Shown in pieces: positions 18,032 to 56,126 of a DNA stretch of 59,336 nucleotides. Within the stretch, counting starts at the first letter, position 1, and every line of letters begins with the position of its first letter. The stretch lies in contig CALAOR010000048.1 in NCBI GenBank assembly GCA_937889595.1, positions 1 through 59,336 on the forward strand, given 5' to 3'. The notes beneath the pieces were generated by a model. The model worked only from the letters and a program-made list of their open reading frames with translations, was not told the origin of the DNA and did no database searches. The translations under genes and the position numbers were made by a program. The DNA is from an uncultured bacterium. Lineage in GTDB: Bacteria; Oederibacteriota; PGYV01; Palsa-1178.

Positions 18032-19309
18032 GTGTTTGACATAAAACTGATCAGGGATAATCCAGACAAGATCAAGGAAAGCCTGAAAAAGAAGCGGACC
18101 GATTTGTCGCTTGTGGATGACGCGCTTTTGCTGGATAAAAAAAGACGCGATATCATAGGCGAAGTGGAGAAACTTAAAGCCGAAAATAACAAAGTTTCGG
18201 GCGAAATAGCAATGATGAAAAAAGAAGGTAAAGACGCTTCCGCGGTTATAGCGGCCATGAAGATCGTGTCCGACAAAATAAAGGTTTTTGACGGGGAACT
18301 CGCAAAAACAGACGCTGAACTTAACACAAAATTATTGTACATCCCGAACATCCCGCATGAATCCGTCCCTGCCGGCGATGATGAAAAAGCCAATGTAATA
18401 GTCAGGCACTGGGGCAGCAAGCCTTCTTTTGACTTTAAACCCAAACCGCACTGGGAAATAGCCGAGTATCTGGACATACTTGACGACAAACGCGCCGTGA
18501 AAGTAACGGGCGCAAGGTTTGTGATCTACAAAGGCCTTGGCGCGCTCCTGGAAAGGGCCCTTATAAATTTCATGCTTGATGTGCAGACGCGGGAAAATGG
18601 ATATACGGAAATCATGCCGCCCATACTCATTAACCGGGATTCCATGACAGGCACGGGCCAACTGCCAAAATTTGAAAATGACGCTTTTAAGCTGGTTGAA
18701 CCGGATTATTTCCTGGCGCCCACGGCTGAAGTTCCGGTCACCAACATCCACAAGGACGAAATCCTGCTCGACAAGGATCTTCCCATATATTACACAGCCT
18801 ATACCCCTTGTTTCCGCAAGGAAGCCGGTTCGTACGGCAAGGATATGAAAGGCATAGTAAGGATGCACCAGTTTAATAAAGTTGAACTTGTGAAGTTTGT
18901 CAGGCCCGGGGATTCCTATGACGAACTTGAAAAACTTACGCTTAACGCGGAGTCCATACTGCAAAAGTTGGACCTCCATTACAGGGTAATGCTTTTATCC
19001 ACGGGAGACATGACTTTTGCCTCTGCCAAGACATATGACATAGAAGTCTGGCATCCCGGAGCAGACAGGTTCTGGGAAACATCTTCCTGCTCTAATTTTG
19101 AGGATTTCCAGGCGCGCAGGGCGAGGATACGCTTTAAGGACAAGGAAAACAAGGTCTGTTTTGTCCATACCCTGAATGGTTCGGGACTTGCGACGTCGAG
19201 GCTGTTCCCCGCAATAATTGAAGCTAACCAGACCAAAGACATGGAAGTCATTATCCCCGAAGTTTTAAGGCCATATATGGGCGGTATTGACAGGATAACC
19301 AAAAAGTAG
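18032..19309 (+). CDS. serS: Seryl-tRNA synthetase
   Basis: This 425-residue class II synthetase is close to the usual length. It has an N-terminal coiled-coil arm (about residues 30-100) that binds the long variable arm of tRNA-Ser. Motif 2 is [20 protein letters not shown] with FNKVELVKF, motif 3 [16 protein letters not shown], and the serine pocket [15 protein letters not shown]. The start is GTG at 18032 with AAGGA 8 nt upstream. Two tRNA-Ser genes follow 0.3 and 0.9 kb downstream on the same strand, so enzyme and substrates are clustered. Confidence 0.96.
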
Positions 19310-19600: not shown

Positions 19601-19686
19601 GGAGGGCTAGTATAATTGGTAATGCGTCAGACTTGAAATCTGATGGGAGAAATCCCTTGGGGGTTCGAGTCCCTCGCCCTCCGCCA
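19601..19686 (+). tRNA. tRNA-Ser(UGA), CCA encoded
   Basis: Acceptor GGAGGGC pairs with GCCCTCC; discriminator G73 is the serine determinant. Anticodon loop CTTGAAA gives UGA. A long variable arm (GGGAGAAATCCC type) and GGTTCGAGTCC T-arm are present. CCA is encoded at 19684-19686. Confidence 0.95.
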
Positions 19687-19709
19687 ATTTTCCTCGGGGA
19701 AAATTGGCG
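19682..19709 (+). repeat. Perfect hairpin formed by the tRNA-Ser 3' end and its trailer
   Basis: CGCCAATTTTCC, loop TCGG, GGAAAATTGGCG. The 5' arm includes the discriminator and CCA of the tRNA. The same 28-nt hairpin occurs at 20251-20278 after the second tRNA-Ser. Confidence 0.75.
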
Positions 19710-19710
19710 A

Positions 19711-19827
19711 GAAAGTTGAGAGTAGAGAGTAGATAGTAGACAAACTACGACAGTTCAAGTTATGGGTTGATATGACGCAAACCCAACTTTCGTTCTACTT
19801 TCTACTTTCTACTCTCTACGCGGTTTT
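19711..19827 (+). repeat. Heptamer tandem repeats forming a long stem, copy 1
   Basis: GAGAGTA-GAGAGTA-GATAGTA (19718-19738) is followed 54 nt later by TTCTACT-TTCTACT-TTCTACT-CTCTACG (19793-19820). The two blocks are complementary and end in GCGGTTTT. It could be a large terminator or a mobile short-tandem repeat. Confidence 0.65.
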
Positions 19828-19903
19828 AACGCCGGCTTTATAACGGCTCTGAACAGTTGAGCAGGTTGAACAGGTTGAGCTGTTGCTCCCTCTCACGCAA
19901 CAC

Positions 19904-20163
19904 GGAAAGGCTGTGAACACTTATGCGAGGTAGTTTCGAGCATTAGTGTTCACTGTCTGGAGTGCAACGGAAAGGCTGTGAACACTTATGCGAGGTAGTT
20001 TCGAGCATTAGTGTTCACTGTCTGGAGTGCAACGGAAAGGCTGTGAACACTTATGCGAGGTAGTTTCGAGCATTAGTGTTCACTGTCTGGAGTGCAACGG
20101 AAAGGCTGTGAACACTTATGCGAGGTAGTTTCGAGCATTAGTGTTCACTGTCTGGAACAAAGT
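19904..20163 (+). repeat. Four tandem 65-bp hairpin units in phase with tRNA-Ser
   Basis: Units start at 19904, 19969, 20034 and 20099, each with GGAAAGG; the next start in phase, 20164, is the first base of tRNA-Ser(GCU), which also begins GGAAAGG. Each unit has a 14-bp stem with one mismatch (GTGAACACTTATGC / GCATTAGTGTTCAC) around GAGGTAGTTTCGA. Units are identical except the last 8 nt of unit 4. There is no spacer variation, so it is not CRISPR. Imperfect 9-bp repeats of the type GTTGAACAG (about 19854-19885) precede the array. It fills most of the 477-nt gap between the two tRNAs. Confidence 0.9.
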
Positions 20164-20255
20164 GGAAAGGTGGCCGAGTGGCCGATGGCAGCTGACTGCT
20201 AATCAGTTGGTCCGGGAAACTGGGCCCGAGGGTTCGAATCCCTCCCTTTCCGCCA
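20164..20255 (+). tRNA. tRNA-Ser(GCU), CCA encoded
   Basis: Acceptor GGAAAGG pairs with CCTTTCC, discriminator G. Anticodon loop CTGCTAA gives GCU. The long variable arm typical of serine and GGTTCGAATCC T-arm are present. CCA is at 20253-20255. Confidence 0.95.
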
Positions 20256-20392
20256 ATTTTCCTCGGGGAAAATTGGCGAGAAAGTTGAGAGTAGAGAGTA
20301 GATAGTAGACAAACTAAGGCAATTCAAGTCACACGTGTAAAACTCTCAAACCCAACTTTCGTTCTACTTTCTACTCTCTACTTTCTTCGCGG
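20251..20392 (+). repeat. tRNA trailer hairpin plus heptamer stem, copy 2
   Basis: This is a near-copy of the trailer of the first tRNA-Ser. Hairpin CGCCAATTTTCC/GGAAAATTGGCG (20251-20278) is followed by GAGAGTA heptamers from 20287 and complementary TTCTACT/CTCTACT blocks (20362-20381). The closing stem GCGAGAAAG / CTTTCTTCGC is followed by GCGG and six T, so this copy could terminate transcription. Confidence 0.65.
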
Positions 20393-20473
20393 TTTTTTCC
20401 ACGGAAAAATTTGGCATTGTCCTGCCTTCATCTTTATGTTATCATCATGTAAATAAAAAATAGGAGCAAAAAA

Positions 20474-52599: not shown

Positions 52600-52684
52600 T
52601 GGTGCGAGTAGAGGGACTTGAACCCCCACCCCTTGCGGGACCAGATCCTAAGTCTGGCGTGTCTGCCAATTTCACCATACTCGC
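52600..52684 (-). tRNA. tRNA-Leu(UAG), CCA encoded
   Basis: Acceptor GCGAGTA pairs with TACTCGC, discriminator A. Anticodon loop CTTAGGA gives UAG. A long variable arm (GGTCCCGCAAGGGGT region) and GGTTCAAGTCC T-arm are present. CCA is encoded at 52600-52602. Confidence 0.94.
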
Positions 52685-55949: not shown

Positions 55950-56102
55950 TGGTGGGCAGTGAGGGAGTCGAACCCTCGGCCAATTGATTAAGAGTCAACT
56001 GCTCTGAGATGCAATTGTGAGCCGAAGGTGAACAACTTATAATAGGCCTCATCTACCTCTCAGCTTGCCGGCTGATTTCCGGCACCGCTGAGCTAACTGC
56101 TG
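55950..56102 (-). pseudogene. tRNA-Lys(CUU) copy interrupted by 78 nt in the D arm
   Basis: From the CCA (55950-55952) back to AGAGC (56005) this is identical to the intact tRNA-Lys at 56127-56201. A 78-nt insert (56006-56083) then separates it from the 5' part GCAGTTAGCTCAGCGGT (56084-56100), which has one D-loop change and two acceptor mismatches (CA for GG at positions 1-2). The insert folds with the D arm: CTCAGC/GCTGAG and GCCGG/CCGGC stems. Most likely a pseudogene; an excised intron at this site has no bacterial precedent that I know. Confidence 0.75.
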
Positions 56103-56126
56103 ACGCTCTAACGCTTTCGTAAAAAT

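Follow-up and report, generated by a model that had tools for sequence, protein, structure and literature searches.

A tandem array of hairpin units abutting tRNA-Ser(GCU) has homologues at unrelated loci within one bacterial order

The window (the whole stretch of 59,336 nucleotides that was analysed) carries, in order, serS, a small ORF, tRNA-Ser(UGA), a tandem repeat array and tRNA-Ser(GCU) (Table 1). The array (19904-20163) consists of four head-to-tail 65-bp units, and its end abuts tRNA-Ser(GCU), a gene that is probably essential, as it is the only tRNA with a GCU anticodon found in the genome. Run on the window, TRF returned a single array (19902-20156, period 65, 3.9 copies, 100% matches, score 510). 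This result and an alignment of the units bear out a preliminary description of this DNA, which had recognized four tandem 65-bp hairpin units in phase with the tRNA, each opening with the tRNA start GGAAAGG. Units 1 to 3 are identical over 65 bp. Unit 4 shares their first 58 bp (59 of 65 positions match overall) and ends in ACAAAGT rather than GTGCAAC. The tRNA, which also opens with GGAAAGG, starts exactly 65 bp after the start of unit 4. The number four may be wrong, because 260 bp of perfect 65-bp copies exceeds the usual short read and the assembly is in 93 contigs.

Table 1. Features of the array, its host tRNA and related loci in the window
Feature	Position	Strand	Remarks
serS, seryl-tRNA synthetase	18032..19309	+	PF02403 and PF00587
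tRNA-Ser(UGA), upstream neighbour	19601..19686	+	precedes the GCU gene in many order members checked
Original tRNA-Ser(GCU) leader GTTGCTCCCTCTCACGCAACAC, left of array	19882..19903	+	in G001 and G003, GTTGC..GCAAC directly abuts the tRNA
Unit 1, 65 bp, starts GGAAAGG	19904..19968	+	hairpin 19908-19958; apical CGAGGTAGTTTCGAG 19926-19940
Junction GCAACGGAAAGG	19964..19975; again 20029-20040 and 20094-20105	+	equals the leader/tRNA junction of the unoccupied G003 orthologue
Unit 2, 65 bp	19969..20033	+	hairpin 19973-20023; apical core 19991-20005
Unit 3, 65 bp	20034..20098	+	hairpin 20038-20088; apical core 20056-20070
Unit 4, 65 bp	20099..20163	+	hairpin 20103-20153; apical core 20121-20135; ACAAAGT at 20157-20163
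tRNA-Ser(GCU), intact	20164..20255	+	sole tRNA with GCU anticodon found in genome
tRNA-Leu(UAG), upstream of trigger-factor gene	52600..52684	-	empty counterpart of the hairpin-bearing G003 locus

Folded as RNA, unit 4 reaches -24.9 kcal/mol (z = -4.6), and none of 200 shuffled sequences was as stable. Folded as single-stranded DNA, it is stable too (z = -4.0), slightly more so on the + strand than on the - strand. From base to tip, the RNA pairs are AGGC/GUCU, a U.U, GUGAACACU/AGUGUUCAC, a second U.U, AUGC/GCAU, a tandem GA/GA and GG/UC, closed by the loop UAGUU. The 14-bp stem originally proposed thus gives way to 4+9+4 pairs with two U.U mismatches, followed by a GA/GA tandem mismatch, two more pairs and a loop of 5 nt.

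We sought the orthologous tRNA-Ser(GCU) in all 14 genomes of the order, including the genome under study (G000); in G012 the search turned up only a different tRNA-Ser. The array is absent from the orthologues in all other genomes of the order examined. In the congener G001, which has no array, the leader ends in ...GTTGCTCGCTTTAGCTTCGCAAC directly before GGAGAGG, and in the confamilial genome G003, which has none at this tRNA, it ends in ...GTTGCTACGCAAC directly before GGAAAGG. These unoccupied leaders therefore read ...GCAAC and then GGA(A/G)AGG of the tRNA. In the window, the leader piece GTTGCTCCCTCTCACGCAAC stops 2 bp short of unit 1, and all three inter-unit junctions repeat GCAACGGAAAGG. 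Because these junctions restore the unoccupied leader/tRNA junction, the repeated host DNA is better described as the roughly 12 bp of GCAACGGAAAGG (about 5 nt from the leader and 7 nt from the tRNA) than as a 7-bp duplication. This host segment straddles the 5' end of the tRNA, which leaves the hairpin as the added part.

By blastn against the whole 3.42-Mb assembly, the array occupies a single place. A covariance model run on the same genome recovered the four units and their reverse complement and nothing else, and no other leader among the 41 tRNA genes inspected contains the unit. Homologous hairpins were nevertheless found in relatives. A single-sequence model built from the array units alone (R1) matched G003:C8:26892-26948 (E = 9.6e-7) and G013:C17 (E = 3.5e-4, plus a second copy), and G005 more weakly. 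When the covariance model was rebuilt (R2) and searched against 384 genomes under strict filters, which may lose weak matches, four genomes matched, all from the same order. The exact core CGAGRTAGTWTCGAG, searched in 59 genomes, occurs only in G000, G003, G005 and G013, each time within a hairpin. Altogether, three genera carry the same 15-bp core at a total of five unrelated loci, several of which also have arms that are recognisably alike, and the element occupies only one or two loci per genome.

The G003 homologue lies upstream of tRNA-Leu(UAG). Here the hairpin sits between two exact 56-bp copies of host sequence, each combining 30 bp of leader with the tRNA's first 26 nt; the insert is 45 bp and the period 101 bp. 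The 3' arm of the insert, GTGTCTG, pairs with CAGACAC of the truncated tRNA-Leu copy. The window has no copy of the element at its orthologous tRNA-Leu(UAG)/trigger-factor locus. G000 and G003 thus each carry the element at a tRNA left unoccupied in the other genome, and in both the element is at the 5' end, the junction is repeated and an intact tRNA lies downstream. The difference in presence at orthologous sites that is used as a criterion for MITEs is seen at both loci: tRNA-Ser(GCU) is empty in G001 and G003, and tRNA-Leu(UAG) is empty in G000.

In family f3, copies of the element follow protein genes and are not in tRNAs. In genus g5, the element follows an ORF for a PD40 (beta-propeller) protein, with three cores in 80-bp tandem units in G013 and one in its sister species G005; in G010, the contig ends exactly at the start of the element after the PD40 ORF. 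G005 has the element after groEL as well, and the groEL site of G013 instead holds a different structured insert at the same position. Two further hairpins were noticed in genus g5. One, conserved, reads GAGCCATTATCAT...TTATGGCGA and accompanies the element (L094, about 1350-1550; L095, about 1430-1525). The other, GGGCTTACGCGAGTTTACGAGCGTAAGTGTTAGGGG, is dispersed (L100, L105 and L107) and has the same CGAG..CGAG head design with a different loop.

The preliminary description had named a unit elsewhere without GGAAAGG as a finding that would speak against its reading. The homologues in G003, G005 and G013 are of exactly this kind, and GGAAAGG is therefore captured host DNA and not part of the element. 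What the homologues do share is the apical CGAGGTAGTTTCGAG, with no more than a single change; in the three of full length, the arms too are homologous, and they covary. Counted on three distinct sequences in an alignment fitted to the model, 7 of 19 stem pairs have changed on both sides, and the covariation score for the same three sequences and model-fitted alignment is 0.579, against 0.176 in shuffles (0 of 500). In this structure-fitted alignment of three distinct sequences, 94% of cells are paired, as compared with 76.5% in shuffles and 50% or less when the partner is slid. Such conservation of the apical loop, together with a covarying stem, suggests recognition of the hairpin, as single-stranded DNA or as RNA, by some factor.

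We favour, with moderate confidence, the explanation that a dispersed hairpin element, low in copy number and specific to this order, inserted at the 5' end of the tRNA, duplicating the leader/tRNA junction, and was then amplified in tandem. The element would be mobile, judging from sequence comparison. From the unoccupied sites, a hairpin of roughly 52 bp would have entered the 5' end of tRNA-Ser(GCU) and duplicated the junction GCAACGGAAAGG, such that the only tRNA-Ser(GCU) gene would keep an intact copy downstream. Selection would presumably favour events that preserve an intact single-copy tRNA. The perfect identity of the units suggests that the 65-bp unit was amplified recently to about four copies; this could have taken place between the 12-bp direct repeats, with the strong palindrome favouring polymerase slippage or unequal crossing-over. 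The leader beside the working tRNA now reads ACAAAGT in place of GTGCAAC. If the array is transcribed, its hairpins would be part of a 5' leader removed by RNase P, and a host function need not be assumed.

Two of the origins first put forward survive in part within this explanation. One was serial insertion of a 58-bp element with a 7-bp duplication. The best fit is indeed an insertion at the 5' end of the tRNA accompanied by duplication, but a single insertion followed by tandem amplification fits better than a series, given the identity of the units and a longer stretch of old leader (GCAAC) at the junctions than the 7 bp first named accounts for. The other, slippage, is plausible for the copy number but does not explain the origin, since homologous hairpins occur at unrelated loci in relatives. 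Several observations weigh against the insertion and amplification of a dispersed element. No mobile-element gene is tied to the hairpin, and one or two loci per genome is a very low copy number, unlike that of typical dispersed repeats. There are just two cases at tRNA 5' ends, with duplicated pieces of 12 and 56 bp, unlike a fixed target-site duplication, and the f3-family copies lie after protein genes. The covariation, moreover, was counted on three distinct sequences only.

The 3' ends of tRNA genes are classic docking sites for mobile DNA; the 5' ends are not. If the favoured explanation is true, two independent 5'-end insertions (Ser and Leu) of one hairpin family, with the junction duplicated each time, would represent a second way for small elements to occupy single-copy tRNA genes while leaving them intact, and the defined hairpin sequence could be used in the search for an enzyme. 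A bolder proposal, which we regard as possible but doubtful, is that the hairpin represents a new class of mobile element that prefers the 5' part of tRNA genes, duplicates the leader/5' segment and leaves an intact tRNA. Recognition of such an element might depend on the invariant apical loop CGAGGTAGTTTCGAG, perhaps at the level of RNA or single-stranded DNA, and the element would be prone to tandem amplification.

Alternatively, the array could be a functional cluster of small RNAs, transcribed with the serS/tRNA-Ser operon, from which RNase P, III or E would free hairpin RNAs that bind a protein through the apical loop. The strong RNA fold is consistent with this, as are the tandem GA and the two U.U mismatches in the stem, the invariant apical loop and covarying stem across families, the gene-like occurrence at one or two loci per genome and the slightly greater stability of the DNA hairpin on the + strand. 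The U.U and GA/GA pairs inside the stem are equally compatible with RNA and with single-stranded DNA. On the other hand, the congener and most of the order lack the element, its positions are non-orthologous between families, the array contains no promoter- or terminator-like site, and there is no credible Rfam match. We consider a small-RNA cluster unlikely.

It is improbable that the array has a purely local origin, in which template switching or slippage created, at the 5' end of the tRNA, a palindrome that then multiplied, no dispersed element taking part. Slippage typically leaves perfectly identical units with direct repeats where they join, and the pairing of the G003 lower stem with host tRNA (CAGACAC/GTGTCTG) is what fold-back synthesis would be expected to produce. 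A local event, however, would not recreate one 15-bp core at five unrelated places spread over three genera, several of them with similar arms, and the homologues largely refute this reading.

We also weighed the possibility that the element is non-autonomous and of REP-like or IS200/IS605 type, with a Y1 (HUH/RAYT) transposase recognising the mismatched hairpin and moving the element as single-stranded DNA. Y1_Tnp genes are present in all seven genomes tested, and the stem has conserved unpaired or mismatched T's, T-T mismatches being given as a feature of REP-related oligomers in PMC7709200. Within the hairpin, GTAG occurs only in the apical loop, whereas the GTAG-tagged REPs described in PMC3733652 carry it at one end, and the copy number is far below the >100 that PMC2817692 gives as usual for REPs. 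We do not file the element as a REP because the hairpins beside ten examined Y1_Tnp genes are unrelated to it, and we judge such a system highly improbable as its source. In genus g5, Y1_Tnp genes (L152 and L153) adjoin near-perfect palindromes with 21-bp arms, TTTAAACGCCCTGTCTGGGGTC..GACCCCAGACAGGGCGTTTAAA, which are a possible REP/RAYT system. Finally, an assembly artefact, with one or few units in the true genome or a mis-join, is extremely improbable: short reads cannot count perfect 65-bp copies over 260 bp and one relative's contig breaks at a homologous element, but independent assemblies contain hairpins of this family, in tandem copies or beside duplicated tRNA sequence, so that only the number four is uncertain and not the presence of the element.

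The rtT repeats of E. coli tyrT are about 178 bp long, lie downstream and copy the 3' end of the tRNA. The resemblance to rtT first pointed out holds in that both are tandem repeats in a tRNA transcription unit and each repeat includes part of the tRNA. It is a loose one, involving the opposite tRNA end and a different structure: the array units are 65 bp long, lie upstream, copy the leader/5' end (GGAAAGG), consist largely of hairpin and are homologous to hairpins found elsewhere. Like MITE-like and palindromic elements (e.g. Rickettsia palindromic elements), the hairpin is small, non-coding, self-complementary, and present or absent at orthologous sites. Unlike them, it lacks a fixed terminal inverted repeat, goes with duplications of varying length (12 and 56 bp), and lies at tRNA 5' ends in one family and after protein genes in another. 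REP, BIME and REPIN sequences, as described in PMC2817692, PMC3733652 and PMC3116915, are likewise short, imperfect, mismatched palindromes outside genes and sometimes clustered; the present element differs in its very low copy number, its conserved apical loop in place of a terminal GTAG or CGTC tag, the absence of linked RAYT hairpins, and its head-to-tail units with captured host DNA. The hairpins of the Equisetum chloroplast trnY-trnE spacer (PMC4144802) are also a lineage-specific unit amplified beside tRNA genes, but have 19-bp units in dozens of diverged copies in an organelle spacer, with no tRNA sequence described in the unit. The finding is a short dispersed palindromic repeat, unusual in its tRNA 5'-end setting and its captured junctions. 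Our literature search found no description of such arrays upstream of bacterial tRNAs, and the hairpin element is apparently undescribed.

Searches of phage and plasmid collections gave no match, nor did viral contigs queried with the left arm plus loop. Ten viral contigs contain the bare 15-mer core without arms or stem; we took these as chance matches, and they serve as a specificity control. Seven GTDB-220 contigs with the stem motif TGTGAACACT...AGTGTTCACT have different loops and contexts and were judged unrelated. Model matches in G010 and G013 with the loop CGAGTTTACGAG belong to a separate repeat of genus g5, outside the hairpin family, and G008 has a core match with one mismatch at a locus where the hairpin was not seen. 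Neither the hairpin nor its homologues credibly matched an Rfam model. A scan for promoter-like sites in the array and the DNA immediately before it came up empty, and no terminator-like site (a G+C-rich stem followed by a T run) was found within the array. We also rejected a type III toxin-antitoxin repeat RNA, as the array is followed by tRNA-Ser and a NAD(P)-binding protein and not by a ToxN-like gene.

Other structured DNA lies beside tRNA genes of this genome. Many tRNA 3' flanks (e.g. 19687-19830 and 20256-20395) contain a palindrome that includes the CCA end, CCA-AATTTT..AAAATT-TGG, followed at many tRNAs by AGTAGAGAGTAGATAGTAGA-type low-complexity DNA, with its inverted copy further downstream at both tRNA-Ser genes; relatives have similar flanks. 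Separately, downstream of an intact tRNA-Lys(CUU) in the window (55950-56110, - strand), a second tRNA-Lys copy is interrupted in its D loop. On another contig of the genome (G000:C89; L090, about 1080-1430), a tRNA-Gly(UCC)-tRNA-Thr(UGU) pair is likewise followed by second copies with interrupted D loops. These inserts have no credible Rfam match and no sequence relation to the 65-bp hairpin, and could represent either another element that targets tRNAs or something akin to an intron. They are structured and 79-80 nt long; those in Gly and Thr differ by 1 nt and that in Lys is a diverged relative. In the interrupted Lys and Gly copies, the first nucleotides are replaced by GCGTCAG.
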